This document shows, one piece after another, positions 32,574-49,029 of a DNA stretch of 64,000 bases (position 1 is its first letter; each line of letters begins with the position of its first letter). Origin of the DNA: an uncultured Lachnoclostridium sp. (lineage in GTDB: Bacteria > Bacillota > Clostridia > Lachnospirales > Lachnospiraceae); NCBI GenBank assembly GCA_930986645.1, contig CAKNJS010000010.1, forward strand, positions 1 through 64,000, read 5' to 3'. The position numbers and the translations under genes are program-made. The notes under the pieces were generated by a model, which searched no databases, was not told the origin of the DNA, and saw only the letters and a list, made by a program, of their open reading frames with translations.

Positions 32574-32630
32574 AACCCGGGAGACAGGCCGTAAAGATAA
32601 AGCCGTAACATCTCCCGGGTTTTCTTTATT
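32574..32630. terminator. Bidirectional terminator between galT and blaR1
   Basis: AACCCGGGAGA (32574-32584) pairs with TCTCCCGGGTT (32611-32621), an 11-bp perfect stem. TTCTTTATT follows on the plus strand and TTGTTTTCTATT on the minus strand. The 26-nt loop has a possible inner hairpin. Confidence 0.9.
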
Positions 32631-33717: not shown

Positions 33718-33724
33718 ATCCACC

Positions 33725-33910
33725 TCATTGCATTTGATCAATCATATCTCTTAGCTGTTTCAGTTCTTCCGCGTCTAGCATTGACTTATCCGACAACAGA
33801 GCGGCGAAAAACTGCTGCTTTGATCCGTCAAACATTCTCTCAATCAGTTCATGCGTCTCATACGCCTGAACTTCCTCCTTTGAGATGACAGCAAACAGAT
33901 ACGCAAGCAC
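33725..33910 (-). pseudogene. blaI: Truncated BlaI/MecI-type repressor (C-terminal part only)
   Basis: 61 codons that match the C-terminal half of BlaI/CopY repressors: VISKEEVQAYETHELIERMF, GSKQQFFAALLSDK, then a helical AEELKQLRDMIDQ tail. These segments form the dimerisation part. The N-terminal winged helix, about 60 residues, is missing. A TAG stop precedes the first codon at 33911-33913 and no matching reading frame continues upstream, where the palindromic element begins at 33928. No ribosome site is visible. It is probably inactive, though expressed dimerisation fragments can interfere with intact paralogues. Confidence 0.75.
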
Positions 33911-34104: not shown

Positions 34105-34662
34105 TTATTTCTTAGAATCAAGATAAGCTTTTCTTCCCTCTTCGTAAAGGTTATTTCCCTCACTGTCAATAATAACAACGAGCGGCATATCCTCAACGTA
34201 GAGCTTTCTCAGCGCCTCTGCGCCGAGATCTTCGTATGCGATAAGCTCAGCTTTCTTGATACATTTTGCAAGAAGAGCTCCCGCGCCGCCAATGGCTCCG
34301 AAATAAACGCCGCTGTACTTTTTCATGGCTTCTACAACTTCCGGAAGACGTGCGCCTTTTCCGATCATTCCGCGGGCTCCTACTGACATCATTGTCGGAG
34401 CGTATGCATCCATACGTCCGCTGGTTGTCGGGCCTGCGCTTCCGATTACATGACCCGGTTTTGCCGGAGTCGGTCCTACATAGTAGATCGTTGCATCCTT
34501 CGGATCAAACGGAATATCCTCACCTTTGGCGAGTGCTTCACACATTCTCTTGTGTCCGGCATCACGGGAAGTGTAGATTGTTCCCGTAAGAAGTACCTGA
34601 TCTCCTGCATGGAGTGTCTTAGCAAGTTCCTCTGTAAGTGGTAATGTAATCTTTCTTGCCAT
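34105..34662 (-). CDS. fumB: Fumarate hydratase, class I, beta subunit
   Basis: C-terminal half (swivelling domain) of the iron-sulfur fumarase, 185 residues. It begins MARKITLPLTEELAKTLHAGD and has GPTPAKPGHVIGSAGPTTSGRMD, the conserved substrate-loop segment. With the alpha subunit it interconverts malate and fumarate. The gene starts directly after the alpha stop (TAAATG), with GGAGG overlapping the alpha coding end. It is last in the mdh-hdr-flx-frd operon. The beta designation reflects its domain, not the E. coli FumB isozyme. Confidence 0.93.
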   Translation of the reverse strand: MARKITLPLTEELAKTLHAGDQVLLTGTIYTSRDAGHKRMCEALAKGEDIPFDPKDATIYYVGPTPAKPGHVIGSAGPTTSGRMDAYAPTMMSVGARGMIGKGARLPEVVEAMKKYSGVYFGAIGGAGALLAKCIKKAELIAYEDLGAEALRKLYVEDMPLVVIIDSEGNNLYEEGRKAYLDSKK

Positions 34663-35505
34663 TTATATCACCTCCGTTTTGTGACGTGTCACGTGACAGT
34701 TGATATTAACTGCACACGGCATTCCTGCGATATGTGTCGGCATAGTCTCAATATTGAGACCGATCGCTGTTGTCTTTCCGCCGAATCCCTGCGGTCCGAT
34801 TCCCAGCTCATTGATCTTCTCCAGCATCTCTTTCTCAAGATCTGCATAGAACGGATCCGGATTAGATGAATCAAGAGGTCTCATAAGTGCTTTCTTTGCA
34901 AGAAGCGCGCACTTGTCAAATGTTCCGCCGATTCCTACGCCCACTACCATAGGCGGACACGGGTTCGGTCCCGCTGTCTCAACAGCCTCAATGATGAAAT
35001 CTTTGATGCCCTGAAGACCTGCTGACGGCTTGAACATACGGATCTGGCTCATGTTCTCACTGCCGAATCCCTTCGGTCCAACTGTTACTTTGATATTCTC
35101 GCCTGGCACGATTTCCGTGTAGAGCATAGCCGGTGTATTGTCACCTGTATTTCCGCGGCGGACCGGATCCTTTACAACAGATTTACGCAGATATCCGTTT
35201 GTATAACCGCGGCGTACGCCCTCGTCTACAGCCTCTGCCAGATCTCCGCCTACAAGATGAACATCCTGTCCGATCTCGAGGAATACGCATGCCATTCCGG
35301 TATCCTGACAGATCGGTACGTTTTCATTGTCAGCGATCTCATAGTTCTCGATAATGTTGTCAAGAACTCCCTGTGCGATCTCGCCGTCCTCACAGGCACG
35401 GCAGCCGCGGATCGCGCATTTTACATCCTCCGGGAGATGTTCGTTTGCTTCGATGCACAATCTCTCGATCACATCAGTAAGTGTACTTACATTGATTTCA
35501 CGCAT
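34663..35505 (-). CDS. fumA: Fumarate hydratase, class I, alpha subunit
   Basis: 280 residues, the 4Fe-4S half of the two-subunit fumarase. Cluster cysteines are visible in CRACEDGE-type context near 40, VPICQDTGMACVF near 65-72, and GIGGTFDKCALLAKKAL near 195. The ATG at 35505 has GGAG 9 nt upstream; a TTG nine bases earlier is weaker. It follows the antiporter gene after a 123-bp gap with no visible terminator. In this operon its likely direction is malate to fumarate. Confidence 0.93.
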   Translation of the reverse strand: MREINVSTLTDVIERLCIEANEHLPEDVKCAIRGCRACEDGEIAQGVLDNIIENYEIADNENVPICQDTGMACVFLEIGQDVHLVGGDLAEAVDEGVRRGYTNGYLRKSVVKDPVRRGNTGDNTPAMLYTEIVPGENIKVTVGPKGFGSENMSQIRMFKPSAGLQGIKDFIIEAVETAGPNPCPPMVVGVGIGGTFDKCALLAKKALMRPLDSSNPDPFYADLEKEMLEKINELGIGPQGFGGKTTAIGLNIETMPTHIAGMPCAVNINCHVTRHKTEVI

Positions 35506-35628
35506 GAAAGTCAACTCCTTCCCTACTTACATTTCATTTTCTTAATATTCTGCATGAACCGCGAAGATACTTCAGCATCCGCACGGTCCATAACAAACAA
35601 ATATAACAATTTTGTACGGCCGGACTGT

Positions 35629-36798
35629 TTATAAGAAGATTCCGATAAACTGGCAGGCCAGTACGACAAATACGAGTGCCACCGGATAAGTTGCGGCGTA
35701 AGCAGATGCCACATCGTCTGTTCCGGTTACACGGATCAGTGTTCCAAGTGCCGGAGTACTCGTCATTCCGCCGCAGATAGAGCCAAGCGTATTGAACAGG
35801 CTCAGCTTCATCAGCTTTGTAGCAACGAAGTAGCCGACTATCATCGGGATCAGCGTGATCAGCGCACCGTATACAAACAGGATCAGCCCCTGCTCTTTCA
35901 GGATTTCGATAAATCCGGCGCCGGCTTCTACACCTGCTCCGATGAGGAACAGTGCCAGACCGAACTCTCGCAGACACTCAAGCACAGATTTCTCCACATG
36001 GAAGCTGATCTTTCCTGCATGGCCGAAATGTCCGAGGATCAGACCTGCAATCAGCGGTCCGCCCGACGTTCCAAGAGAGAACTGTGCACCGCCCGGAAGC
36101 GGGATAACAATCTTAGCAAGAATGATTCCGAGTGCGATTGCCAGTGCAAACGCGAAGAATCCCATCGAATCTACATGGAACAGATTATCTTTTTTCTGCA
36201 CATCGCTTACATTCTGCGCGGCTTCAAACTTTGCACGCTCCGCATCCATATCCGTCTTAAGGAGCTTCGGAACCAGCTGTACAAACAGCACAACACCTAC
36301 TACGCCGAACGGGTAAGCAATGCCATATCCGATAGATGCGTTTGCAGATCCTGTGGCGTCCAGAGCAGCTGCAAGTCCCGGCGTACTTGTCAGAGCGCCT
36401 GACATCATACCAACCGTAATGTCTGTCGGTACACCTGCGATCTCAATGATCCCTGCTGTAACGAGGGCTCCGATCGCAATGATGATAAAGCCGAGCAAAA
36501 TGTATGATTTTGCATTGATTTTGAAGTTACGGAAAAATTTGGGGCCGGCAATAAAACCAACGGAAGTCACAAAACAGATCAGCCCGAGATCCTGAAACAT
36601 TCCAAGTCCATCGATCAGATCTTCGTTATTGCCGATAAAATGTCCGAACACGAGGGCGACAAGCAGTACGCCTGCCGTCCCCAGCTCAACCCCTTTGATC
36701 GTAATACTTCCTACGAGATAGCCTATCGCAGCTACGAGGAATAAGATCATCAGGGTCTCCCCCATCACACTTTCCTGAAACCAATTAACTATAAACAT
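35629..36798 (-). CDS. AspT/YidE/YbjL-type antiporter
   Basis: 389 residues with about ten transmembrane helices. It has the internal duplication typical of the aspartate:alanine exchanger family, with the paired motifs GMMSGALTSTPGLAAALD near 128 and GSICGGMTSTPALGTLI near 345. The cytoplasmic TrkA-C domains found in AspT and YidE are absent, so only the permease core remains. Its place between frdA and fumA suggests exchange of C4-dicarboxylates, for example succinate out with fumarate, malate or aspartate in; that is inference. AAGGAAG lies before the ATG. Confidence 0.8.
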   Translation of the reverse strand: MFIVNWFQESVMGETLMILFLVAAIGYLVGSITIKGVELGTAGVLLVALVFGHFIGNNEDLIDGLGMFQDLGLICFVTSVGFIAGPKFFRNFKINAKSYILLGFIIIAIGALVTAGIIEIAGVPTDITVGMMSGALTSTPGLAAALDATGSANASIGYGIAYPFGVVGVVLFVQLVPKLLKTDMDAERAKFEAAQNVSDVQKKDNLFHVDSMGFFAFALAIALGIILAKIVIPLPGGAQFSLGTSGGPLIAGLILGHFGHAGKISFHVEKSVLECLREFGLALFLIGAGVEAGAGFIEILKEQGLILFVYGALITLIPMIVGYFVATKLMKLSLFNTLGSICGGMTSTPALGTLIRVTGTDDVASAYAATYPVALVFVVLACQFIGIFL

Positions 36799-36813
36799 TC
36801 TCTTCTTCCTTTC

Positions 36814-38415
36814 CTATCTCTCATGTCTTGCGTATTTCGGAAGAAGGAGCGGAGAAACATCTCCTGTGTCAATTCCGGCCTCTTTCAGCTCTTCTGCATA
36901 TGCCTGAATGTGATCCAGATTCATATTGCCAAGCTCTACATTTTTAGCCTTTGCTGCAGCAGCTTTTCCTGCGTTGCGTCCGAATACGATGATATCCAGA
37001 AGTGAGTTGCCCATCAGTCGGTTTCTTCCGTGGATTCCTCCGACAGCCTCTCCTGCAACAAGCAGATTGTCGATTACCTTTGTAAATCCGTCGCCGCCGA
37101 TCTCAAGTCCGCCGTTCTGGTAGTGAAGGGTCGGATATACAAGGATCGGAAGTTTTCTCATATCGATATCATATCTCATGTACATACGGAGCATTGCCGG
37201 GATGCGTTTTTCAATCGTTCCCGGTCCGCCGATTTCTTCGATCATCGGCGTGTCAAGCCATACGCCGCTTCCAAGAGGTGTAGTTACACCTTTGCCGCGT
37301 GCTGTACACTCGCGGATGATACCTGCGGCAGCAACATCACGTGTCTCCAGCGGATGCATAAATGCCTCTCCGTCAACATTGACAAGCTGTGCGCCTACGG
37401 AACGAACTTTCTCTGTTACAAGGGCGCCGAAAATCTGTGACGGGAACGCTACTCCTGTAGGATGATACTGGATCGTATCCTGATACAGAAGCGGAGCACC
37501 CATACGGTATCCGAGGATCAGACCGTCTGCTGTAGCGCCGTAGTGGTTTGAAGTCGGGAATCCCTGATAGTGCATACGTCCTGCACCGCCTGTAGCGATG
37601 ATGACTGTCTTTGCCTTTGCGACAAGGTAATCCTCTGTCTCCAGATTCTGAAGAACAGCTCCTGCAACCTGTCCTCTGTCGTCTCTGATCAGCTCTACTG
37701 CTACAGTGAACTCGGCAACCGGGATCTGACGGTTTAATACTTCATCGCGAAGTGTACGCATGATCTCTGCTCCGGAGTAATCCTTGCAGGCATGCATTCT
37801 CTTTCTGGATGTACCGCCGCCGTGTGTAGTGATCATTCTTCCGTCTTTATCTTTGTCAAACATAACGCCCAGATCATTGAGCCATTTGATCGCATCCGGT
37901 GCTTCCATAACAAGACGTTTCAGAAGTTCCGGTCTAGCGGCAAAATGTCCGCCTCCGAACGCATCCAGATAATGCTGTACCGGAGAGTCATTCTCCTTAT
38001 CAGCTGCCTGAATACCGCCCTCTGCCATCATTGTATTTGCATCACCGATACGGAGCTTTGTCACGATCATGACATTTGCTCCCGCCTCATTCGCCTCGAT
38101 TGCTGCAGATGCGCCTGCACCGCCGCCTCCGATAACGAGTACATCAACGTCATAGTCTACTTTGTTAATATCAACTTTGTCTGTAAGCAGACGGCTGTTG
38201 GAGTGGAGCAGATGCACAAGCTCTTTCGGTGCTTTCTGTCCTTTGTTCGGTCCTACTTTGATCTCTGCGAATGCTTCTTCCCTGTAATCAGGATGGAATT
38301 CCTTAAGGAGAGCATCTTTCTCATCCGCCGTCATTCGTCTCGGCTCTACACCCAGACGCTGTGCTCTGGTGGCCTCCACTTTTTTTACGGATTCCATCAT
38401 TTCCGGTGTAAACAT
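36814..38415 (-). CDS. frdA: Soluble fumarate reductase flavoprotein subunit
   Basis: 533 residues. An 85-residue polar N-terminal extension precedes the FAD Rossmann motif GGGGAGASAA (96-105). The active-site set of fumarate reductases is complete: HPTG at 318-321, R359 in ETRDVAAAG, H431 in LHYQNGG, and R466 in GRNRLMGNS. The histidine that binds FAD covalently in membrane FrdA is replaced by N127 (ANTMMAEGG), so FAD should be non-covalent. The usual C-terminal helical domain is missing; only about 50 residues follow the FAD fold. No signal peptide or heme motif is present, so it is cytoplasmic. It should reduce fumarate to succinate with electrons from the Hdr/Flx subunits encoded beside it. 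Confidence 0.85.
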   Translation of the reverse strand: MFTPEMMESVKKVEATRAQRLGVEPRRMTADEKDALLKEFHPDYREEAFAEIKVGPNKGQKAPKELVHLLHSNSRLLTDKVDINKVDYDVDVLVIGGGGAGASAAIEANEAGANVMIVTKLRIGDANTMMAEGGIQAADKENDSPVQHYLDAFGGGHFAARPELLKRLVMEAPDAIKWLNDLGVMFDKDKDGRMITTHGGGTSRKRMHACKDYSGAEIMRTLRDEVLNRQIPVAEFTVAVELIRDDRGQVAGAVLQNLETEDYLVAKAKTVIIATGGAGRMHYQGFPTSNHYGATADGLILGYRMGAPLLYQDTIQYHPTGVAFPSQIFGALVTEKVRSVGAQLVNVDGEAFMHPLETRDVAAAGIIRECTARGKGVTTPLGSGVWLDTPMIEEIGGPGTIEKRIPAMLRMYMRYDIDMRKLPILVYPTLHYQNGGLEIGGDGFTKVIDNLLVAGEAVGGIHGRNRLMGNSLLDIIVFGRNAGKAAAAKAKNVELGNMNLDHIQAYAEELKEAGIDTGDVSPLLLPKYARHER

Positions 38416-38427
38416 GATCTTCCCTCC

Positions 38428-39102
38428 TTATTTCTCAATCTCTCTGTTGTTGTAAAGTTCCTGCATCTCTTCGATTGGCTTCTCCATGATCTGCTCGATC
38501 AGCTGATCGTAATCGCCGTGGTGAATCTCTTCCACACGTTTTGTCAGGTGTTTGGACTCCGGTGCAATATATTTACCTGTAAGTCTTCTTGCCAGAACAC
38601 CTACCATCGGGTGGGAGATCTCTGCCGGACATCTTACGGAGCAGCATCCGCATCCGATACAGTCGAATGACTCTTCGGCACACTTCTCAAACTCACCGCG
38701 CTGTGCGTACGCAATGTACTGCATTACGTTCAGGTCCTGAGTACATGCCTTTGTACAGGCATTACATCCGATGCAGCTGTAAATCTCCGGATACAGATCC
38801 ATCATGATCCTCTGCTCCGGTTTGATATCTTCAATGTCATATGTTCTCTTGTCTGTCGGGAAGAACGGAACAGTTGCCACATACATTCCCTCTTCTACCT
38901 GTGTCTGGCAGGCGAGGCATGTCTTCAGCTCGTTCTTGCCCTTAATCCTGTAGATCGTCGCACAGGCACCGCAGAAGCCGTGACGGCAGCCGCATCCTCT
39001 TTTCAGTGTATAGCCCGCGTATTCCATCGCTGTCATAATCGTCAGGTCTGCCGGCACACTGTATTTCTTACCGAAAAAATATACATTTACCATATTTTCC
39101 AT
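38428..39102 (-). CDS. frdB: Fumarate reductase iron-sulfur subunit, HdrC-like
   Basis: 224 residues. The N-terminal 2Fe-2S ferredoxin fold has C39-x4-C44-x2-C47 and C62/C65. The C-terminal half has two 4Fe-4S motifs, C110-x2-C-x2-C-x3-C120 and C148-x2-C-x2-C-x3-C158P. Classical FrdB would use a 3Fe-4S cluster near the quinone site; here the second motif looks like a full 4Fe-4S and the half resembles HdrC. Unlike methanogen TfrB it has no CCG domain; a separate HdrB in the operon supplies that. No cytochrome or anchor subunit is encoded. It lies 12 bp upstream of frdA. Confidence 0.85.
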   Translation of the reverse strand: MENMVNVYFFGKKYSVPADLTIMTAMEYAGYTLKRGCGCRHGFCGACATIYRIKGKNELKTCLACQTQVEEGMYVATVPFFPTDKRTYDIEDIKPEQRIMMDLYPEIYSCIGCNACTKACTQDLNVMQYIAYAQRGEFEKCAEESFDCIGCGCCSVRCPAEISHPMVGVLARRLTGKYIAPESKHLTKRVEEIHHGDYDQLIEQIMEKPIEEMQELYNNREIEK

Positions 39103-39119
39103 GATATTTCTTCCTTTCC

Positions 39120-39974
39120 CTAGTATTCATTCGGCATCTCATCGATTTCATCGCACCGAAATACCGGACCGTCTTTACATACATATTTTGAGCCGATGTT
39201 ACATCTTCCGCACTTTCCGATTCCGCATTTCATGCGAAGTTCAAGTGTGGTGTATATCTGATCTCTGGAGAATCCCAGTTCTTCCAGACCTGCCAGTGTG
39301 AACTTGATCATGATCGGAGGTCCGCAGATCAGAGCTGTCTTGTTTACATCGAATCCCAGTTCCTTCACATAATTCGGCACGAATCCTACATGTCCGTCCC
39401 ATCCTTCCTGCTCGCGGTCGATCGTCAGATGAACGTGTACGTCAGGAGCTTTCATCCATACTTCCTGAATCTCCTTTAACTGAACCAGATCGTCAGCGGA
39501 ACGGGAACCGTAGACGATATCAACTGTACCATAATCGTCACGGTTGTCCAGCACGTAGTTGATAACGGAACGCAGCGGCGCAAGACCGATACCGCCGGCG
39601 ATGAAAAGCAGGTCTTTTCCTTTAAGCTTATCCTCTACCGGGAAATGATTGCCGTACGGTCCTCTGACCGTGATCTCATCGCCCACCTCCAGACTATGGA
39701 GATATTCTGTAAGCATCCCGCATTTTTTAATGCTGAATTCCTGATATTCTTTATTGGTCGGCGAAGAAGTAATTGAAAACATACCTTCGCTGACTCCCGG
39801 TGCACAGAGCATTGCGCACTGTCCCGGCATATGCTCGAACAGCTTGCCGCCCTCCGGAGCATTGACGCGGAACGTCTTTACGTCCGGCGTCTCCTCGCGG
39901 ATGTCAGTGATCACTCCTACCTTCGGGATCAGGGTATCCAGTGTATAATTTTTGTGACATGTACATTCACTCAT
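39120..39974 (-). CDS. flxA: FlxA-like FAD/NAD(P)H oxidoreductase subunit (AsrB-like)
   Basis: 284 residues. An FAD-binding beta barrel (about 15-105, with FSITSSPT near 67) is followed by an NAD-binding domain (LLFIAGGIGLAPLRSVINY near 122, YGSRS, CGPP near 219). A C-terminal cysteine site CGIGKCGRCNIGSKYVC (near 250-266) binds a 2Fe-2S cluster, as in dihydroorotate dehydrogenase electron-transfer subunits. In FlxABCD-HdrABC complexes this is the NADH entry point. Its ATG overlaps the flxB stop (TAATG), and GGAGG precedes it. Confidence 0.87.
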   Translation of the reverse strand: MSECTCHKNYTLDTLIPKVGVITDIREETPDVKTFRVNAPEGGKLFEHMPGQCAMLCAPGVSEGMFSITSSPTNKEYQEFSIKKCGMLTEYLHSLEVGDEITVRGPYGNHFPVEDKLKGKDLLFIAGGIGLAPLRSVINYVLDNRDDYGTVDIVYGSRSADDLVQLKEIQEVWMKAPDVHVHLTIDREQEGWDGHVGFVPNYVKELGFDVNKTALICGPPIMIKFTLAGLEELGFSRDQIYTTLELRMKCGIGKCGRCNIGSKYVCKDGPVFRCDEIDEMPNEY

Positions 39975-41014
39975 TACTTTTCACCTCCCTGTTTTGCAAA
40001 CGCCTTAATAACTTTTACGATATTTAAGGATTCCGGGCATTTCTCCACACATCTTCCGCATCCCACGCAGGAATACATTCCGTCGTTATTTGCCGGATAG
40101 TATACCAGTTTGTGCATGAATCTCTGGCGGAATCTCTCTTTTTGTGTCTTACGGTTGTTTCCTCCGGCCATCATAGTGAAGTCAGAGTACATACAGGAAT
40201 CCCAGCAGCGGTATCTCTGCACGCCGTTCTTTCCTGTATCATAGTCCTTGATGTCGTAACACTGGCATGTCGGACATACAAACGTACATGTTCCGCATCC
40301 CAGACACGGTTTGTACAGTTCATCCCACAGCGGAGAATCAAACTTCTCCATTGTGACATCTCCGTTCCATCCCTCAAGGGAGAGATGTGTATACGGGAGC
40401 TGCTCAATGATATTGTGGATTGCTTCTTTCTCTTTCTCAACAGTCTCGTCCGCGCCTGCATCCTCTGTGAGCAGGTCGGCAACAGCTTTCGTGAGCGCTT
40501 CTCCTTTTTCTGTAAGCGCTTTCCAGTACAGATCCTCTCCGATCAGCCACGCAGCAACATCAGCAGCCGGCTCTGCCGCATCGATGCCGAATACCTTACA
40601 GAAGCAGGTTTCCTCCGGCTCATGGCAGGCGAGGGCAACGATCGTGCCGTGATCTCTTCTGGCCGCATAGAATGTATCGAGCGGATCTACAAGAAATACT
40701 TTATCCAGCACTTCCACGCCTCTCACATCGCAGGCTCTCATTCCGAATACGACGAAATCCTGTTCTTTCAGCGCTTCCGGCTCAATATTTATTTTCTTTC
40801 CATCCCTGACACAGGTATAAAGTGTTTCGCTCTGCGGGAAGAAAGCGTCTTTCGGAGATTTTACTGTCTTTAACGTATCGATATCAACAGTGGCATCCTC
40901 AGACCATGCTGCAAAGTTTACCTGGCCTTCGTTTCTTACCGGAAGATATAATTCCTGTTCTGCGGCAATCTTCTGAAATAATGCCGTCAGATTTTCTTTC
41001 GCTATCTTATACAT
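39974..41014 (-). CDS. flxB: FlxB-like iron-sulfur protein (AsrA-like)
   Basis: 346 residues, resembling anaerobic sulfite reductase subunit A and hydrogenase beta-type proteins. The first two thirds form the AsrA-like domain (VVFGMRACDVRGVEVLDKVFL near 90). Two 4Fe-4S motifs follow: CLGCGTCTFVCPTCQC near 238 and CVGCGRCVEKCPES near 317. It should relay electrons between FlxA and the Hdr core. The flxB/flxC naming is by similarity to the sulfate-reducer operon and could be swapped. Confidence 0.8.
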   Translation of the reverse strand: MYKIAKENLTALFQKIAAEQELYLPVRNEGQVNFAAWSEDATVDIDTLKTVKSPKDAFFPQSETLYTCVRDGKKINIEPEALKEQDFVVFGMRACDVRGVEVLDKVFLVDPLDTFYAARRDHGTIVALACHEPEETCFCKVFGIDAAEPAADVAAWLIGEDLYWKALTEKGEALTKAVADLLTEDAGADETVEKEKEAIHNIIEQLPYTHLSLEGWNGDVTMEKFDSPLWDELYKPCLGCGTCTFVCPTCQCYDIKDYDTGKNGVQRYRCWDSCMYSDFTMMAGGNNRKTQKERFRQRFMHKLVYYPANNDGMYSCVGCGRCVEKCPESLNIVKVIKAFAKQGGEK

Positions 41015-41017
41015 ACA

Positions 41018-41992
41018 TTATCCCCTTTCTGCCACAATTCCCGGCTCTGCGTCTTCTACATCATAATTGGTGAGCGGAGTTCTAGGCTCCAGATCTGCAC
41101 CTGCCTGATACTCTCCGTAGAGCTCGTTGATATCTTTGATAAATTTCCGGTTGAACAGGTGAAGACGGATTCCCTGCGGACAGACTCTGCTGCACTCGCC
41201 GCAGTCTGTACATCTTCCCGCCACATGGAATGCGCGGATGATGTGGAACATCTTTTCCTCGAAGGAATCTACATTCGCCTTCTGTGAACTGTCAAACTTA
41301 TTGCTGTCAAATACACATTTACGGCAGCTGCAGGCCGGGCATACATTACGGCAGGCATTACAGCGGATGCATTTGCTCAGCTCTTTCTGGAAGAATGCAA
41401 ATTTATCTTCCGGGCTCATTGCCTCAATCTTTTCGACCTCCGCAAATCTGTCGGCGTCTTTTGTGTCTTTGGACTCGCCGATGATCTCGTCGAAGATCAT
41501 GTGATCCTTGCCTTTGCAGACGTGGCATCTCTCCAGCATAGCGTCTTTGTACGCACAGCTCTTCTCTCCGTAAATTGTATCGATCGTAAGCGTTTCTGCC
41601 TCGTCTTCGATCTCTGCGCCGGAGATACTTTTGATACCTTTAATGCCCATAGCTCTGATCTTTTCGATGTCAAGCTTTCCTTTGCAGCCCACACCGATGA
41701 TATACGCTTTGTCCCTGTCCACACGGTGCTCTTTCATCAGCTCCTGAAAGCTGTATGTATCACAGGGTTTTAAGCACACAAGCGTCTTTCCTTCCAATTT
41801 GGAAGCCTCGATCATATATTTGCTTAAGTTTGCCCCGCAGAATCCGTTGTACACGAAATCCGCGAAGTCTTCTTCTTTCTCAAAGTAAGCCGGTTCCGGA
41901 TTGTAAGGCAGGTCCCCGGCTTTCCATCCGAGCACTCTTGCCACAGTTCCATCGGCCAGAAGCTCTTTTGCGCGGTTGATTAATTCCTGCAT
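41018..41992 (-). CDS. flxC: FlxC-like iron-sulfur protein
   Basis: 324 residues. The N-terminal part resembles F420-hydrogenase beta-type domains (LVCLKPCDTYSFQELMKEHRVD, then GVGCKGKLD). Two ferredoxin motifs follow: CIRCNACRNVCPACSCRKC near 209 and CTDCGECSRVCPQGI near 262. Extra cysteines (CHVCKG near 156) may bind another cluster. Its start lies 13 bp inside flxD, with GGAGG upstream. It probably bridges flavin and Hdr subunits. Confidence 0.8.
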   Translation of the reverse strand: MQELINRAKELLADGTVARVLGWKAGDLPYNPEPAYFEKEEDFADFVYNGFCGANLSKYMIEASKLEGKTLVCLKPCDTYSFQELMKEHRVDRDKAYIIGVGCKGKLDIEKIRAMGIKGIKSISGAEIEDEAETLTIDTIYGEKSCAYKDAMLERCHVCKGKDHMIFDEIIGESKDTKDADRFAEVEKIEAMSPEDKFAFFQKELSKCIRCNACRNVCPACSCRKCVFDSNKFDSSQKANVDSFEEKMFHIIRAFHVAGRCTDCGECSRVCPQGIRLHLFNRKFIKDINELYGEYQAGADLEPRTPLTNYDVEDAEPGIVAERG

Positions 41993-42423
41993 CTTAAATC
42001 CTCCAATCTTACGTTTTTACCGAGAGATGTGATCTTGTCCACAAACTCATGCATAGTCTGTGAGAACTTGGCACCCTCGGCTGCGGATACCCACTCTACA
42101 CGGGTACGGCCGTTTTCTACTCCGATATAATCCAGCATGGAGAAGAGAAGCGTCATACGTCTTCTTGCGTAATAATTTCCGGAAGTATAATGGCAGTCGC
42201 CCGGATGGCATCCGCACATGATAACTCCGTCTGCTCCTCTTTCAAATGCTCTTAAGATGAACATCGGATTGACACGGCAGGAACAGGGAACGCGGATGAT
42301 CTTGACGTCGGCCGAATAGGACATACGGCTGCTTCCCGCCAGATCCGCTCCGGCGTAACTGCACCAGTTGCAGCAGAACGCCACGATCTTTGGTCTGAAT
42401 TCTTCATTCTTTTCTATCGACAT
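41980..42423 (-). CDS. flxD: FlxD / MvhD-type delta subunit
   Basis: 147 residues from the ATG at 42423 (GGAGG 10 nt upstream), overlapping hdrA by 10 bp. A longer frame to 42522 lies within hdrA. It is the MvhD family 2Fe-2S protein, with CCNWCSYAGADLAG near 16, VPCSCRVNP near 47, and GCHPGDCHYTSGN near 71. In methanogens and sulfate reducers this subunit docks the electron-input module onto HdrA. Its presence is the strongest single indication of a bifurcating Hdr complex here. Confidence 0.9.
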   Translation of the reverse strand: MSIEKNEEFRPKIVAFCCNWCSYAGADLAGSSRMSYSADVKIIRVPCSCRVNPMFILRAFERGADGVIMCGCHPGDCHYTSGNYYARRRMTLLFSMLDYIGVENGRTRVEWVSAAEGAKFSQTMHEFVDKITSLGKNVRLEDLRCRN

Positions 42424-44402
42424 ATCGCATCTACCTCCGCTAGAATCTGTCTGTTCGAGAATCCCTGCAGGTCCATTGCTCCGGACGGACACGTTACGGT
42501 GCAGGCACCGCATCCCTGACAAAGCGCATCGTTTACAACCGCAATACGTCTTGTCTCGCGGACTCCGTGATCATTCACCTCTTTATCTTCGTAGGTGATC
42601 GCTCCGTACGGACATACATTAGCACACTGGGAACATCCGTTACACAGAAGCTCATCAGAATGTGCCGTACACGGATTGGTCAGCAGTTTATCTTTGGCAA
42701 GAAGTCCGATTGCTTTTACTGCAGCCGCTCCTGCCTGAGATACCGTCTCCGGAATATCCTTCGGTCCCTGACACACACCGGAAAGGAAGATACCGGCTGT
42801 CGGTGACTCTACCGGACGAAGCTTCGCGTGTGCTTCTGTGAGGAAGTTGTTTGTATCGATACTTGCTGTCAGCATTGTAGCAATCTTTCTTACATCCGGA
42901 TTCGGCTCGATCGCTGCAGCAAGAACAACCATATCAGCCTCTTTTAAGATCTGTTTGTTATCCAGAAGGTCAGCTCCCTGAACGAGCAGTTTTCCATTCG
43001 GCTGCGGAATAACTTTTCCGACCTGTCCCTTGATGTAGTTTACTCCGTAATCTTCTACGGCTCTGCGGTAGAACTCATCAAAGTTCTTGCCCGGTGTTCT
43101 CACATCAATATAGAAAACCGTTACATTTGTATCCGGATACTTATCGCGGATAAGCATTGCGTGTTTTGCTGTGTACATACAGCAGATCTTGGAGCAGTAG
43201 CTCTTTCCTCTGTTGTCTGCGCAGCGGCTTCCCACGCACTGGATAAACACCATTTCCTTCGGAGCTTTGCCGTCGGAAAGGCGCTCGAGATGTCCGCCTG
43301 TCGGTCCTGCTGCATTCATGATACGCTCCAGCTCGAGAGATGTGATAACATCCTTGCTCTGGCTGTATGCATACTCATCATATTTATCAAGCTTGATCAT
43401 ATCGAAGCCTGTTGCTACAACGATAGCGCCGTACTTCTCTGTCACGATCTCGTCGATCTGATCATAATCAATAGCTCCTGCCTGACATACTTTTGAACAG
43501 ATACCGCATTTTCCTGTCTTGAATTTGATGCAGGCGTCACGGTCGATAACCGGAACGTTCGGAACTGCCTGTGCAAACGGTGTGTAGATAGCACTTCTTG
43601 TATTTAAACCGCGGTTGAACTCGCTCGGCGTCTTCTTGCTCGGGCATTTTTCCTGACACACGCCGCAGCCTGTACATTTGTTCATATCCACGCTTCTTGC
43701 TTTCTTGCGGATTTCAACTGTGAAATCCCCTACGAAACCGGATACGCTCTCTACTTCACTGTATGTATAGATATTGATGAGCGGATGTGCGTTCACCTCT
43801 CCCATCTTCGGTGTCAGGATACAGGATGAACAGTCCAGTGTCGGGAATGTCTTGTCCAGCTGTGACATTCTTCCGCCGATACTCGGTGTCTTCTCAACGA
43901 TATCAACCGGATATCCCGCCTCTGCAATATCAAGCGCAGTCTGGATACCTGCAATACCTCCGCCTATTACGAGCGCTCTCTTTGTAACACGGCTCTCACC
44001 CGGCTTAAGCGGTGCGTCCAGATTTACTTTTGCAACTGCCGCACGCATCAGGATGACAGCTTTTTCCGTCGCTTCCTCAATATCTTTGTGAATCCATGAA
44101 CAGTGCTCACGGATATTTGCGATCTCTACCATGTACGGGTTAAGTCCCGCTTTCTCCGCTGCATTTCTGAATGTCGTCTCGTGCATACGCGGAGAACATG
44201 AACAGACGACAAGTCCTGTCAGATGTTTCTCTTTGATCGCCTTATGGATGAGCTCCTGTCCGGCCTCGGAACACATATATGCGTAGTCCTCAGCATGAAC
44301 AACACCCGGCTCATGGAGCGCCATCTCAACGACTTTCTTTACGTCTACCGTTGCCGCGATATTTGTACCGCAGTGGCAGACAAATACTCCTATCCTCTGC
44401 AC
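42414..44402 (-). CDS. hdrA: HdrA-like FAD iron-sulfur subunit
   Basis: 662 residues, GTG start with GGAGG 9 nt before. The order is an N-terminal domain with VCSCSPRMHE near 67, the FAD Rossmann motif LVIGGGIAGIQTAL at 144-157, CSSCILTPKMGEV near 191, and an inserted ferredoxin motif CTGCGVCQEKCP at 243-254. A CGICSKVC site follows near 299, and two C-terminal 4Fe-4S motifs are CNGCSQCANVCP and CQGCGACTVTCP. HdrA carries the flavin that splits electron pairs in heterodisulfide reductase complexes. No selenocysteine codon is needed. The electron split between ferredoxin and fumarate is inferred, not shown. Confidence 0.9.
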   Translation of the reverse strand: MQRIGVFVCHCGTNIAATVDVKKVVEMALHEPGVVHAEDYAYMCSEAGQELIHKAIKEKHLTGLVVCSCSPRMHETTFRNAAEKAGLNPYMVEIANIREHCSWIHKDIEEATEKAVILMRAAVAKVNLDAPLKPGESRVTKRALVIGGGIAGIQTALDIAEAGYPVDIVEKTPSIGGRMSQLDKTFPTLDCSSCILTPKMGEVNAHPLINIYTYSEVESVSGFVGDFTVEIRKKARSVDMNKCTGCGVCQEKCPSKKTPSEFNRGLNTRSAIYTPFAQAVPNVPVIDRDACIKFKTGKCGICSKVCQAGAIDYDQIDEIVTEKYGAIVVATGFDMIKLDKYDEYAYSQSKDVITSLELERIMNAAGPTGGHLERLSDGKAPKEMVFIQCVGSRCADNRGKSYCSKICCMYTAKHAMLIRDKYPDTNVTVFYIDVRTPGKNFDEFYRRAVEDYGVNYIKGQVGKVIPQPNGKLLVQGADLLDNKQILKEADMVVLAAAIEPNPDVRKIATMLTASIDTNNFLTEAHAKLRPVESPTAGIFLSGVCQGPKDIPETVSQAGAAAVKAIGLLAKDKLLTNPCTAHSDELLCNGCSQCANVCPYGAITYEDKEVNDHGVRETRRIAVVNDALCQGCGACTVTCPSGAMDLQGFSNRQILAEVDAICR

Positions 44403-44408
44403 CTGTTA

Positions 44409-44798
44409 TCACCTCCTGTATCTTCTGAGTGCACTTACGAGAAGCTGCTGCGGTGTATCGGGATCTATAAGTTCCGGTATGTCGTCCGCCAGCAGATAAT
44501 TCTTGCCTCTCTCACGCACAACAATCTGTCTTGCAGCGTCGATCAGCTTGCCCGGCTTTACATCGCGCGGACATCTCTCTACACATGCAAAGCAGGAGAG
44601 ACATTTCCAGAGTGATTTTGATTTAACCAGTGACTCAATGTCCTCGTTGATCACATAGGAAACAAACTGGTGCGGTTTAATATCCATTTCATTGTAGGAA
44701 GGGCAGGAAGCGGAACATTTACCGCATTTCATGCATTTCAGCGGATTCACGCCGCTGATCTCTTTGATCATCTCTGCGCGACTGTGTTCTGTTTTCAC
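44409..44798 (-). CDS. hdrC: HdrC-like iron-sulfur subunit
   Basis: 129 residues with two 4Fe-4S motifs: CMKCGKCSASCP near 22 and CLSCFACVERCP near 65. It starts with GTG whose GTGA overlaps the hdrB stop; GGAGG lies 10 nt upstream. HdrC passes electrons from HdrA to HdrB. No membrane helix is present, so the complex is soluble. Confidence 0.9.
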   Translation of the reverse strand: MKTEHSRAEMIKEISGVNPLKCMKCGKCSASCPSYNEMDIKPHQFVSYVINEDIESLVKSKSLWKCLSCFACVERCPRDVKPGKLIDAARQIVVRERGKNYLLADDIPELIDPDTPQQLLVSALRRYRR

Positions 44799-45592
44799 TG
44801 CTCATCCACCTCCTCTTTGAGTCCCAGCGCCTCTGCCAGAAGTTCTGTAAAGTAGTAAACCGGCAGGTTGCCGCCGTTATTCTTGTTCAGATTATACATG
44901 CACAGCGGACAGGCTGTGATCAGCATATCAGCGCCGAATCCTGCTGCACTCTCCTCAATCTTGCGGCACATGTTTTTGGACATATCTTCTTCTTTCAGTG
45001 ATATGTATCCGCCGCAGCATTCATTTCTGTACGGATAAATTACCGGTTCAGCTCCGATGGCACGGATAAAGTCCTCCATGATCGTCGGATTCTCCGGATC
45101 ATCAAATGCCATCAATTTGCCCGGACGCAGAAGCAGGCATCCATAATATGCGCCGATTTTTTTGCCTGTAAGCGGTTTTACAACTTTTTTCTTCAGCTCG
45201 TCAAATCCCACGCGGTCACGGAGCACCTCCAGATAATGAAGTACTGTCGTCTCTCCGGCGTAAGGCTCATCGAGTTTCATATAGTTGTTCGCTCTTGTAC
45301 GGATATCATCGACATTTTTCATGTCATCATTTACCCTTTTAATCACATGATGGCAGGCTGAACAGACTGTGACCAGATCCTGTCCGTGCTCTTTTGCGTC
45401 ATTGAGTGCACGTACAGAAGCCAGCTTTGTAGCAATCTCATCTGTTCCCAGCGGATAAACGCCGCCGCAGCACTGCCACTCGCTGATTTCTTCCAGCTCG
45501 AAGCCCAAAGCCTCAGCGGATACTCTGGCATAGTGATCCAGATCCACTGCCTTGTTCTTCAGAGTACAGCCGGGGAAATAGCTGTATTTCAT
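44795..45592 (-). CDS. hdrB: HdrB-like CCG-domain subunit
   Basis: 265 residues from the ATG after GGAGG (8 nt). Two CCG modules are visible: SEWQCCGGVYP near 40 with CSACHHVIK near 76, and RNECCGGYISL near 190 with CPLCMYNLNK near 229. In methanogens these bind two non-cubane 4Fe-4S clusters that reduce the heterodisulfide. Here no thiol cofactor genes are nearby and a soluble FrdAB is encoded downstream, so HdrB may instead hand electrons to FrdB. A GC-rich hairpin sits just upstream of the ribosome site. Confidence 0.88.
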   Translation of the reverse strand: MKYSYFPGCTLKNKAVDLDHYARVSAEALGFELEEISEWQCCGGVYPLGTDEIATKLASVRALNDAKEHGQDLVTVCSACHHVIKRVNDDMKNVDDIRTRANNYMKLDEPYAGETTVLHYLEVLRDRVGFDELKKKVVKPLTGKKIGAYYGCLLLRPGKLMAFDDPENPTIMEDFIRAIGAEPVIYPYRNECCGGYISLKEEDMSKNMCRKIEESAAGFGADMLITACPLCMYNLNKNNGGNLPVYYFTELLAEALGLKEEVDEQ

Positions 45593-45615
45593 AGTGTTTA
45601 CCTCCTTGTCTGTCA

Positions 45616-45634
45616 GGCGGGCATCAGACCCGCC
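45616..45634 (-). other. Intercistronic hairpin before hdrB
   Basis: GGCGGG (45616-45621) and CCCGCC (45629-45634) form a 6-bp GC stem with a 7-nt loop, about 24-42 bases upstream of the hdrB ATG in the 100-bp mdh-hdrB gap. No U tract follows, so it is a likelier mRNA processing or stability element than a terminator. It could set the ratio of mdh to Hdr/Flx/Frd expression. Confidence 0.5.
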
Positions 45635-45692
45635 CCGTTGCCGAATCATCTTTCTGCCTTTTACCAGCAGAATAAATAACCCCGGATCAAAA

Positions 45693-46640
45693 TTAGATGT
45701 CTAACTGAGCGATTACTTCTTTCAGCTTATTTGCGCTTGACTGAAGCTTCTCAATCTCTTCGTCTGTCAAATGCATCGGAACCTTGCCCTGTACTCCGTT
45801 CGGTCCGACAAGTGAAAGAACGCTTAAGCATACGTCGTCAACGCCGTATTCGCCGTGCATCATAGAAGATACCGTTGCGACAGAGTCAGAAGCTGCGAGT
45901 ATCAGGTTGCACAGCTCTACAACAGAAACAGCTACTGCATAGAATGTAGCTCCTTTCTTTGCGATAACCTGTCCGCCTGATTTGTGCACATATTCTTCCA
46001 TTCCCGGTTTGTCAAGCTCTTCCAGATCTGCTCCGAGAGCTTTCATTTCTTTATAATAGTCGTCGATCGGCATGCTTGCAATGTTGGCTCCTGACCACGG
46101 AACAAAGGAAGAATCGCCGTGCTCGCCGTATACATAGGCATGGATATTCTTCTGTGCTACTTTGAAATGTCTGGACAGTCCGTAGCGGAGACGCGCTGTA
46201 TCAAGAAGTGTACCGGAACCGATGATCTGATTCTCCGGAAGTCCTGAGATTTTTGTAAATACATATGTCAGAATGTCAACCGGGTTGCTTACAATGATGT
46301 ATTTTGCATCCGGCGCTGCTTTTACGATTTCCGGTGTGATAGATTTGATGATATTGACATTTGTCTGTGCGAGCTCGATTCTTGTCTGGCCCGGCTTACG
46401 TGCGATACCGGATGTGATAATAACGATATCTGATCCTTTTGCATCCTCGTAATCGCCTGCAACGATGGAAATCGGGCTTCTGAAACATGTGCCCTGCTCA
46501 ATATCCATTACTTCGCCTTCTACCTTATCCTTATTAATGTCGATCATAACGATCTCAGATGCGAAGTCCTCGTAGGACAGTTTGTACGCAATTGTAGCTC
46601 CGACACTTCCGGCGCCGATGATAGTAATTTTGCTGCTCAT
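45693..46640 (-). CDS. mdh: LDH-fold malate dehydrogenase
   Basis: 315 residues of the lactate/malate dehydrogenase family. The NAD motif GAGSVGATIAY at 9-19 and acidic D34 after the second strand indicate NAD(H). The substrate loop reads ARKPGQTR with R81 at the position that is Gln in lactate dehydrogenase; Arg there binds the second carboxylate of oxaloacetate. The rest (GEHGDSSFVPWS) looks LDH-like, as in the clostridial malate dehydrogenases with an RKPGETR loop. Context with fumarase and fumarate reductase supports malate. First gene of the operon, with GAGGAG before the ATG. Confidence 0.8.
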   Translation of the reverse strand: MSSKITIIGAGSVGATIAYKLSYEDFASEIVMIDINKDKVEGEVMDIEQGTCFRSPISIVAGDYEDAKGSDIVIITSGIARKPGQTRIELAQTNVNIIKSITPEIVKAAPDAKYIIVSNPVDILTYVFTKISGLPENQIIGSGTLLDTARLRYGLSRHFKVAQKNIHAYVYGEHGDSSFVPWSGANIASMPIDDYYKEMKALGADLEELDKPGMEEYVHKSGGQVIAKKGATFYAVAVSVVELCNLILAASDSVATVSSMMHGEYGVDDVCLSVLSLVGPNGVQGKVPMHLTDEEIEKLQSSANKLKEVIAQLDI

Positions 46641-46899: not shown

Positions 46900-49029
46900 T
46901 TATAAGCTCTGTGCTGCTTCCTGTCCGGAAGGCGCTGCAGGCGAAATGTTAATTCTGTGTACCCTGCTTTCTTCCAGATACTCCGTCATTTCGGGATGTT
47001 CCTTCAGAAGTTTTTTACGAAGTTTCTTTCTCCGATTATCGATAAGACCGGCGATACGCTCTTTCTCTCTGATCAGCTGTTCCGGGAACTCGCCGATATG
47101 ACCTTCGATAGAACGGAGAAGAAGATCTTCATCCAGATTTCCCAAAAATCCCCATGAGCTCACCAGCTTGTCAACGCCTTCTTCTGACAGCTTCACCACA
47201 TCATCCATGGTCCTGATCAGACTGATCACATAAAGAGCTCTTTTCTCAATTTCTTTTTCAGAGTCTTTCCCAAATGCCCACACAAATTCCTCGAGTGTAT
47301 TTTCCTCTCCCTGCGGATTTGCACGATTGCCAAGTCTCTCCAGTCTGACGGCATCTTCTTTTGGCATATCCAGTCTGCAGGGCACTTCAATACCTGCATC
47401 TCTCAGGGCAGCGAGGATTGTGCGCCTCACTCTTCCATCATCTATCAGATGACCGATGCCGAGATGCCTCATTTGTGCGTTGATCAAATCTGTATGACCT
47501 GTGATATAGAAACGGATTCCTCTCTTTTCCAGACTGGCGGAAAGCATCTCGACAGCATCTGCCGCGGTAAAATCAATACTGTTAACTGCTTCCGCATCTA
47601 TGATCACTGCTTTTGTATCATCTCTTACTGCATTTTCGATATCACTCTGCAGTATTTTGATATTTGCGAAAAACATATCCTCACTGAAGCGATAGATAAT
47701 CACATTTTGAATCGGATAAGCAAAACGGTTTTTATCCAGATCATAATACCCTGATTTCCCCGGAACCATTCCACGGAATGCTCTCGGCGGATTAGTGGCT
47801 TTGAGAATCATTGCAACAAAGGAAAGGATAATACCGATCAGGACACCGTAAATCGTCCCCAGACACAGCACACCGACTCCCGCTGCAATAAAGATATAAA
47901 ACTCCGATTTGCTCACTTTAAAGAGGCGTACCGCAAGATGTGCCTCCACCACATTGAGAAGTGCGGAAATCACGATCGCCGTCAGTACCGGGACCGGCAG
48001 ATAACCGATAAATCCGGTTGCTGACAGAAGGATTACCGCCATTACAAATGCCGCAACAACAGAGACAGCCTGAGTCCTTCCTCCATACTGCTCATTCATA
48101 GATGTACGGGAAATACTTCCGTTTGCCGGACAGCATCCTGATGCCGCTGCCGCCAGATTTCCCGCTGCACATGCAAGAATTTCCCGACGTATGTTCAGCT
48201 TATATCCATTCTTTACGGCAAAGCTGTTCTCTGCCAGCAGCGTCTCTGCCATAACTACAACCGCCACCATAAGACCTCTGCCGGCAGCATGTGTCAAATC
48301 CACGCGGTGGAATTGCGGTACGAATAACTTTGGAAGACCGGGCTCTACAGATGATAAAAGAATCACGCCTTTCTCGTCCACATGAAAAAAGACTGTTGCA
48401 AGGACACCAAGCACCATAATAAGAATCGCCATCGGAAATCTTGGAATATATTTCTTTGCAAGGATGAGGATCACTAAAGCTCCCGCTCCCATGGCAAGCG
48501 ACAGCCAGTTTATGTATGGAAGAGAATTCCAGATATGTTTTGCCAGTTCCAGAATTTCCCCCCGCCCCGCAGGGCTTCCCATTAATTTCGGCACCTGCAT
48601 CAGAATGATCGTAACAGCGATGCCGCTGATAAAACCTCCCATAACCGGCGTAGAGATGAAGTCTACAATCTTGTCCGCCCTCAGGAAATAAAACAAAATC
48701 AGCCACAGGCCGGTGAAAAGCGCGACCATTGGAATATAAAGCATAGCCTGCTCCGATTCGCTCACAAATCCGTGCGCTGCGATTGCACCGCCTACGATCG
48801 CGGCAGGAGTCGCATCCACTCCAAATACAAATTGCCTTGAAGTTGAAAACAGTGCAAAGAACAGAATTGGGAGCACCGATCCGTACAGGCCGTACACGGC
48901 AGGCAGGCCTGCGATCTGTGTATATCACATAGCAATCGGGATCGATACTGCTGCGATAATGATCCCTGAAAAGATATCTTTCGGAAGATACTCCAATTTA
49001 TAGTCTCTCAGTGTTGGAAATAATCTCAT
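46900..49029 (-). pseudogene. SulP family anion permease with STAS domain, interrupted by an in-frame TGA
   Basis: From the ATG at 49029 (AGGAG upstream) the frame encodes MRLFPTLRDYKLEYLPKDIF and the start of the first SulP helix. Codon 35 is TGA (48925-48927), exactly where relatives have Gly in AMGYAQIAGLPAVYG. The frame then continues uninterrupted to 46900, with the rest of the permease, a STAS domain (KAVIIDAEAVNSIDFTAAD) and a further acidic, helical tail of about 130 residues. One base change (GGA to TGA) explains it. Initiation inside, at the GTG at 48897, would lose helix 1. Substrate could be sulfate, bicarbonate or a dicarboxylate. Confidence 0.8.

Follow-up and report, generated by a model that had tools for sequence, protein, structure and literature searches.

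A candidate soluble, ferredoxin-coupled fumarate reductase operon in an uncultured Lachnoclostridium and the HdrC-HdrB subclass that accompanies it

Introduction

Among the metabolites of the gut succinate is an important one, and in textbook accounts the reduction of fumarate depends on quinones. How fumarate might be reduced by gut Firmicutes that have no quinones is the question raised by an operon in a stretch of 64,000 nucleotides (the window, meaning the whole stretch analysed) at the start of contig CAKNJS010000010.1 of an uncultured Lachnoclostridium sp. (assembly GCA_930986645.1). The operon consists of 13 reading frames, all on the minus strand from 46640 to 34105, in the order mdh-hdrB-hdrC-hdrA-flxD-flxC-flxB-flxA-frdB-frdA-aspT-like-fumA-fumB; the count is 12 if fumAB is taken as one gene. 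A first-pass annotation of the window had described this contiguous operon, had listed no cytochrome b, FrdC/FrdD or quinol subunit in it, and had proposed FrdBA as the high-potential acceptor of HdrABC-FlxABCD. The layout and the missing membrane subunits are as it described; the proposal has gained support from gene order, co-occurrence and host gene content, while its assembly and ferredoxin steps stay conditional in what follows.

The operon would supply both the reductive C4 branch, which leads from oxaloacetate to succinate and its export, and the electrons for it. FlxA would take hydride from NADH, and FlxB, FlxC, and FlxD would pass the electrons to the flavin of HdrA. HdrA would split the pair, one electron leaving through its ferredoxin domains to ferredoxin and the second passing from HdrC by way of HdrB and FrdB to FrdA, whose non-covalent FAD would reduce fumarate to succinate. 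The net reaction would be 2 NADH + fumarate + Fd(ox) -> 2 NAD+ + succinate + Fd(red, 2e-), and the reduced ferredoxin (Fd) could be re-oxidised either by Rnf, building an ion gradient, or, with release of H2, by a monomeric group-B [FeFe] hydrogenase. Judged from its genes, the operon machinery is likely to be a soluble NADH-to-fumarate reductase that charges ferredoxin.

Conservation of the operon

The FrdB alignment was scanned against 84,980 species genomes and gave at least 591 confirmed stretches; the best 80 were kept, and being those nearest the query they are a biased sample. Among these 80, hdrBCA-flxDCBA precedes frdB, in order, in 59 of the 59 loci with at least 6.7 kb upstream, which is the conserved synteny that the first-pass annotation had asked to be checked, and frdA follows frdB in 77 of 77 loci with enough downstream sequence. 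A chance arrangement is excluded because the synteny is kept in every one of the 59 loci. An mdh of more than 50% identity is found in 37 of 52 loci with enough upstream sequence, fumA and fumB together in 46 of 58 with enough downstream sequence, and an AspT-like gene starting within 4 kb of frdB in 34 of 58. The closest named loci among the matches listed are Mediterraneibacter metagenome-assembled genomes (L051-L056), with FrdB 95-99% identical.

Of 200 genomes sampled evenly across the family, the window's own included, 20 contained FrdB and 22 HdrA. All 20 genomes with FrdB also have HdrA, 18 of them on one contig and at most 5.5 kb apart; in G044 and G057 the two are on separate contigs, and FrdB there is either next to a contig end or part of a contig of 4 kb. 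The two genomes with HdrA only have the HdrB type called classical below. Synteny limited to the window's strain is thus rejected by the close loci, by the family sample, and by several gene orders in the phylum. At G098:C44:14550-16504, the HdrA match falls into two parts, covering query residues 1-186 and 196-662, perhaps through a frameshift or an assembly error.

The HdrC-HdrB outlet arm

When the window HdrB was compared with 398 genomes of the phylum, 156 matched at E 1e-25 or better. Scores of at least 220 bits occur in 27 genomes and the next are 207.9 (G541) and 206.6 (G290), the dividing line, between 220.4 and 207.9 bits, having been set after the gap was seen. FrdB is present in 27 of the 27 genomes with window-type (Frd-type) HdrB versus 12 of the 371 others, that is, in 39 of 398 overall (Fisher p 6.7e-33; p values are inflated by shared ancestry). 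By family, all ten families with Frd-type HdrB fall among the 16 with FrdB (family numbers run to f138). The two genes are at most 10.3 kb apart in 20 of the 27 genomes and on different contigs in seven (G209, G384, G409, G433, G548, G564, and G568). The separation in G564 may be a contig break, with hdrA beginning 770 bases from the contig end; the examined hdr-flx stretch of the other six contains no frd gene (one of these stretches, L158, ends at the contig end after flxB). As for the two genomes just below the line, G541 is without FrdB, and G290, Frd-type by tree only, has FrdB about 1.5 Mb from hdrB on one contig.

A tree of 39 HdrB rows splits Frd-type from classical sequences with 100/100 support. 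All 25 Frd-type rows come from FrdB genomes, as do five of the 14 classical rows; 19 of the 25 are the window or loci found via FrdB, where the tie exists by choice, and the other six were picked from HdrA matches, which makes the 398-genome search the fairer test of the tie. L147 and L159 were left out of the tree (extracted frames shorter than 200 aa), and L144_1, L144_2, and L166 are long branches of unsure placement. Both HdrB types occur within families f1 and f54 and within genome G498, so the split is not explained by host phylogeny alone; both also occur, on long branches, within genome G479 and family f123.

Similarity to the window was also compared between seven unlinked Frd-type Flx-Hdr loci and 13 classical loci. 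The classes were defined by HdrB and gene order, and the lack of overlap in their HdrB scores is therefore by construction. HdrC separates narrowly (78-115 bits in Frd-type versus 62-76 bits in classical loci), while HdrA (p 0.25) and FlxC (p 0.94) do not differ between these loci, which also rejects HdrA similarity as a class marker; FlxD, FlxB, and FlxA overlap between classes with smaller shifts (p 0.005 to 0.011). The HdrC frame measures 126-160 aa in Frd-type versus 188-227 aa in classical loci, where the frames of L170 (277 aa) and L171 (542 aa) are overcalled or run on; a 202-aa HdrC called in L144 adjoins a second, classical HdrB there. Since the split shows in HdrB and HdrC but is absent from HdrA and FlxC, both kinds of locus appear to share the NADH inlet and the bifurcating core, and it is the HdrC-HdrB outlet arm, rather than the core, that looks specialised to serve FrdB.

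Ten HdrB positions separate the classes (T29, P66, L67, L92, T94, V102, R105, Y215, H138, and E192), and the first eight are within six residues of a cluster cysteine; this is only suggestive, because conserved positions cluster there anyway. Loss of cysteines as a sign of a changed role was considered and rejected, all ten cluster cysteines being kept in 25 of 25 Frd-type and 14 of 14 classical sequences. NCBIfam models were likewise rejected as a separator of the types, as sequences of either type stay well under the cut-offs of TIGR03288 and NF042965, with neither coming out consistently ahead.

FrdBA as a module

The regions around frdBA were examined for 25 of the 38 FrdB genomes other than the window's. 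In four, frdBA is upstream of hdrBCA-flxDCBA (L132, L134, L140, and L143), and in one it is downstream, as hdrCBA-flxDCBA-frdBA (L154). In four more, hdrCB and frdBA are together without hdrA nearby (L133, L141, L145, and L149), and in another four hdrCBA, a second HdrA-like protein and flxD precede frdBA (L144, L146, L147, and L155). The remaining 12 have no hdr within the examined region. As frdBA is found with such varied partners, it is a module. The second HdrA-like protein of L146 is 1092 aa long, with HdrA-type profile matches; by eye, L144 contains succinyl-CoA synthetase-like genes and L146 sucD- and korB-like genes. These four loci may represent a further bifurcating fumarate reductase, one set in a reductive TCA context.

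A more specific proposal is that FrdBA serves Hdr machines as a plug-in module for fumarate, and that it is fed by a distinct HdrC-HdrB subclass, formerly a disulfide reductase and now an electron wire, with noncubane clusters delivering electrons directly to FrdB, in effect a split thiol:fumarate reductase without the thiol. This proposal is offered tentatively, at slightly less than even weight. A rival to the bifurcating complex described at the outset is an arrangement of two enzymes, in which Flx-HdrABC would reduce a thiol/disulfide carrier and FrdBA would be fed by that carrier or by ferredoxin, with no direct contact between HdrB and FrdB. The intact HdrB cysteines and the genomes that have FrdBA without Frd-type HdrB would suit two enzymes, and routing via ferredoxin and a DsrC-like protein is named as an option in Riftia symbionts (PMC11636981; this and the other papers are cited for the parts of their text that were available). 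We nevertheless regard two enzymes as quite improbable: the HdrB type tracks the presence of FrdB even when the genes are unlinked, hdrCB and frdBA adjoin without hdrA in the four loci above, and the single-chain TfrB profile covers both FrdB-like and HdrB-like parts.

Some FrdBA loci have other neighbours. Upstream of frdBA, L150 (9654-10316, in G238) encodes a protein matching NrfH at 70.7 bits, below the cut-off of 134.2, and L151 (10448-10867, in G580) a small multihaem cytochrome c-like protein, judged by eye; after frdA, L152 (5227-6213) has a match to a formate dehydrogenase gamma cytochrome b at 61 bits, below cut-off. In these lineages FrdBA may have gained membrane partners. The two genes checked in L138 gave no profile match. 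Many phylum HdrA matches (e.g. in G212, G459, and G297) contain one in-frame TGA, perhaps for selenocysteine; the window HdrA has none.

Residues, family membership, and direction of FrdBA

The position of FrdA aligned with the histidine that covalently binds FAD in complex II is Asn (Asn127) in 102 of 102 FrdA sequences; four of the 105 loci surveyed yielded no FrdA of at least 450 aa. His318, Glu335, Arg359, His431, and Arg466 are invariant in the 102 and Thr334 is Thr in 101, all six being residues that we take, from complex II work, to be catalytic. Non-covalent FAD suits one-way fumarate reductases such as L-aspartate oxidase and flavocytochrome c, and in E. coli loss of the histidine reportedly favours fumarate reduction. 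These features bear on the opposite direction, a confurcation in which succinate would be oxidised with reduced ferredoxin, yielding NADH. Although Hdr machines are, as a matter of general knowledge, reversible in principle, we consider this direction very improbable in view of the missing histidine and of mdh, fumAB, the permease, and a phosphoenolpyruvate carboxykinase (PEPCK) that suit the reductive branch; in addition, Blautia luti (PMC12773636) and Pseudoclostridium thermosuccinogenes (PMC7282089) make succinate.

The TfrA model gives the best score for FrdA, 323.1 bits, yet this is far below its cut-off of 718, and FrdA does not qualify as the TfrA of thiol:fumarate reductase. Neither is there a TfrB, in which FrdB-like and HdrB-like parts are spanned within one chain: FrdB (224 aa) and HdrB are separate and score 35 and 40 bits versus a cut-off of 385. 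The SdhE equivalog, the anchor of 8-methylmenaquinol:fumarate reductase, scores 143.8 bits with HdrB against a cut-off of 500. The N-terminal extension of FrdA was considered as an Hdr-specific dock and rejected, because the 90-95 residues before the FAD motif are present in all 102 FrdA, including those without neighbouring hdr.

Host metabolism and energetics

The host genome (2.70 Mb in 95 contigs) is 89% complete. No match to Sdh-type cytochrome b (PF01127) was found genome-wide at this completeness, the FrdC and FrdD models having been searched within the operon, and none to the UbiA prenyltransferase, for which control genomes were positive in 14 of 14 cases; the absence of both is likely, not certain, because the genome is incomplete to that extent. 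A quinol-linked complex II is rejected on these negatives together with the Asn at the covalent-FAD position. The genome encodes RnfC and RnfD (the two Rnf subunits searched), ATP-type PEPCK, and a monomeric group-B [FeFe] hydrogenase (612 bits, cut-off 450). With E0' of -320 mV for NAD and +33 mV for fumarate, and with a ferredoxin potential between -500 and -400 mV, each succinate formed by the coupled reaction is computed to release 33 to 53 kJ, and the ATP gain would be about 0.56 per succinate if all ferredoxin went to Rnf.

Operon layout and gene parts

The features are listed in Table 1. From hdrB through aspT, adjacent frames overlap or almost touch; the larger gaps are those between mdh and hdrB (43 bp by open reading frame, about 100 bp if HdrB starts at Met20) and between aspT and fumA (114 bp). 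A promoter and terminator scan found 24 promoter-like sites versus 17.6 expected and 10 terminator-like sites versus 10.1 expected.

Table 1. Features of the operon and its neighbours, with positions in the window
Gene	Positions	Strand	Product	Remarks
mdh	45693..46640	-	LDH/MDH-family dehydrogenase, probably malate dehydrogenase	Arg at specificity position
hdrB	44795..45649	-	Frd-type HdrB, two CCG domains	Ten cluster cysteines; likely start Met20 (45592)
hdrC	44409..44798	-	HdrC, short form (129 aa)	Two 4Fe-4S motifs
hdrA	42414..44402	-	Full-length flavoprotein, bifurcating Hdr type	Closest solved chain 5odc_A
flxD	41980..42426	-	MvhD/FlpD family	PF02662, 180.9 bits
flxC	41018..41992	-	4Fe-4S protein	FrhB_FdhB_C trace
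flxB	39974..41014	-	HydB/AsrA-like 4Fe-4S protein	
flxA	39120..39974	-	NADH dehydrogenase subunit	FAD/NAD-binding
frdB	38428..39102	-	FrdB, 224 aa, without HdrB fusion	2Fe-2S and two 4Fe-4S motifs
frdA	36814..38415	-	TfrA-like flavoprotein	N-terminal extension of about 88 residues; without covalent-FAD His; full fumarate site
aspT-like	35629..36798	-	Short AspT/YidE-type permease, 389 aa	Profile matches
fumA	34663..35514	-	Class I fumarase alpha subunit	Profile match
fumB	34105..34662	-	Class I fumarase beta subunit	Profile match
	46900-48897	-	SulP-family anion transporter	Upstream of mdh, same strand; 277 bits, cut-off 380
	32626-33741	-	BlaR1-like membrane peptidase-type protein	Between galT and operon; 97 bits, cut-off 400

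The NAD/FAD domains of FlxA, with FlxB, FlxC, and an FlpD-type FlxD, form one cluster with HdrABC, as in FlxABCD-HdrABC systems. The alignment of HdrA with the solved chain 5odc_A spans residues 3-660 of 662, cysteine motifs included, and HdrA has the FAD and full Fe-S set of its type; HdrB aligns with solved HdrB chains, the alignments beginning at Met20, with both CCG cysteine sets kept. The product of mdh scores 348 bits with the NCBIfam L-lactate dehydrogenase model and 283 bits with the malate dehydrogenase model. Its loop reads ARKPGQTR where 4m1q_A has AQKPGETR, so that Arg replaces Gln at what we take to be the specificity position (Gln102Arg), Arg presumably indicating malate dehydrogenase. 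This is a pointer only, because 1y6j_A, deposited as a lactate dehydrogenase, has the same Arg; the product is probably malate dehydrogenase. The AspT/YidE-type permease is perhaps a dicarboxylate (succinate) carrier.

Relation to known systems

The fumarate reductase of Hydrogenobacter thermophilus is reportedly soluble and NADH-linked, like the one proposed here, but is said to be encoded by five scattered genes (Miura and colleagues, 2008). The FlxABCD-HdrABC of Desulfovibrio, reportedly described by Ramos and colleagues in 2015, has the same seven subunits; the window differs in having FrdBA attached, and the outlet-arm subclass was judged against ordinary Flx-Hdr loci of the window's phylum rather than against Desulfovibrio sequences. 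The TfrAB of methanogens is similar in that TfrA is the best model for FrdA and the TfrB profile has FrdB-like and HdrB-like parts, but differs in the scores far below the cut-offs, in the separate genes for FrdB and HdrB, and in its donor, which would here be HdrA rather than thiols.

Closer systems have been proposed. A "succinate operon" was reported in P. thermosuccinogenes, where ferredoxin-linked fumarate reduction was assumed "as proposed previously", with the 2019 preprint 10.20944/preprints201912.0288.v1 among the works cited for that proposal; the operon was about 4-fold up under CO2 limitation, significance not being reached for all subunits (PMC7282089, 2020). Compared by description rather than sequence, that operon likewise has a fumarate hydratase, Flx-Hdr (RS03360 down to RS03330), two fumarate reductase tags, and a putative succinate transporter, but differs in the position of its fumarase, at the opposite end, and in that the available text names no mdh for it. 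With frdBA contiguous with seven hdr/flx genes and fumarase, the window contains a succinate operon in this sense. A Flx-Hdr complex with TfrAB and KorABCD was suggested in tubeworm symbionts (PMC6315080, 2019), and the Flx-Hdr/TfrAB model was repeated later (PMC11636981, 2024). In these symbionts and Thioflavicoccus, as here, Flx-Hdr genes are interspersed with fumarate reductase and direct transfer is proposed; unlike here, the genes belong to a reductive TCA cluster of Gammaproteobacteria and the reductase is of the TfrAB type. Termite-gut Deferribacterota have Flx-Hdr and a separate FrdABCD (PMC12887300).

Four species, Blautia coccoides, B. luti, B. producta, and B. wexlerae, are listed as having HdrABC-MvhD, which is discussed there around methylene-THF reductase; no quinones are given for these Blautia, and in its available text the paper makes no tie of Hdr to fumarate reductase (PMC8578096, 2021). 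The first-pass annotation knew of no standard description of this assembly in gut Firmicutes. In general such descriptions exist, as cited above; for a Flx-Hdr-linked fumarate reductase in gut Firmicutes, no account was found in the open-access literature searched. The window operon is thus a widespread addition to what has been put forward earlier for a clostridium and for reductive TCA symbionts; new here are an HdrC-HdrB subclass whose presence follows that of FrdB from genome to genome, the occurrence of the system in many gut-type Firmicutes, and the link to a studied gut species.

Evidence against ferredoxin-charging fumarate reduction

Several points weigh against the mechanism proposed above. 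No biochemistry on this complex was found in the literature examined. Frd-type HdrB is lacking in 11 of the 39 FrdB genomes (12 by score, the tree placing G290 in the Frd-type), because of which FrdBA can probably work with other donors, and HdrB may still act on a disulfide, because its ten cluster cysteines are kept. The expression pattern of tfrAB differs from that of the Hdr-Flx cluster in Riftia symbionts (PMC11636981), and in Moorella thermoacetica ferredoxin is not reduced by the HdrABC-MvhD-MetFV complex, for which bifurcation could not be demonstrated (PMC8578096).

The Moorella complex is also a precedent for a soluble NADH:fumarate reductase without bifurcation, in which Flx-Hdr would simply wire NADH to FrdBA and ferredoxin would be uninvolved. 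B. luti has been modelled with such a plain NADH-dependent fumarate reductase, in a paper whose main text is without "Hdr" or "Flx" (PMC12773636), and the roughly 68 kJ computed per succinate would then just be lost. HdrA would be needless in so simple an enzyme, however, and that of the window is full length and aligned throughout with the HdrA of a ferredoxin-reducing Hdr; we therefore regard a non-bifurcating enzyme as unlikely.

Blautia luti as a living case

Loci filed as B. luti MSK.16.34 (L083) and B. schinkii MSK.6.26 (L085) have hdrBCA-flxDCBA-frdBA-fumAB, and no mdh or AspT-like match was found in either stretch. On glucose, B. luti forms acetate, succinate, lactate, formate, and H2, with 0.42 succinate and 0.17 H2 per glucose; its fumarate reductase activity was 504 mU/mg with reduced methylviologen, frdAB transcription was high, and the authors describe it as unexpected that the ferredoxin hydrogenase HydM is used (PMC12773636, 2026). 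The strain of that study may differ from MSK.16.34. If the operon is the active reductase in B. luti, its ferredoxin could feed HydM: by computation from the published yields, up to 0.42 ferredoxin pairs per glucose would arise versus 0.17 H2 measured. A further point against such a role is a second SdhA/SdhB-like pair in the MSK.16.34 genome (L184 464-2730), beside the operon frdBA, from which the measured activity may partly come. The B. schinkii genome has, besides the operon copy, only weaker, partial matches. B. schinkii DSM 10518 was marked as without Hdr (PMC8578096), and the presence of the operon in MSK.6.26 may reflect a strain difference, misnaming, or a missed annotation.

Biological meaning

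If ferredoxin-charging fumarate reduction is correct, the operon would explain how quinone-free Lachnospiraceae reduce fumarate and save energy in doing so, and in B. luti the reductase would supply HydM with ferredoxin, bearing on a published puzzle. The HdrB/HdrC subclass would serve as a genome-level marker: if FrdBA is indeed a module served by that subclass, Frd-type HdrB in a genome would predict ferredoxin-coupled fumarate reduction even where the genes are scattered. Much of the gut succinate of quinone-free Firmicutes would then be made with ferredoxin as a by-product, feeding Rnf or H2.

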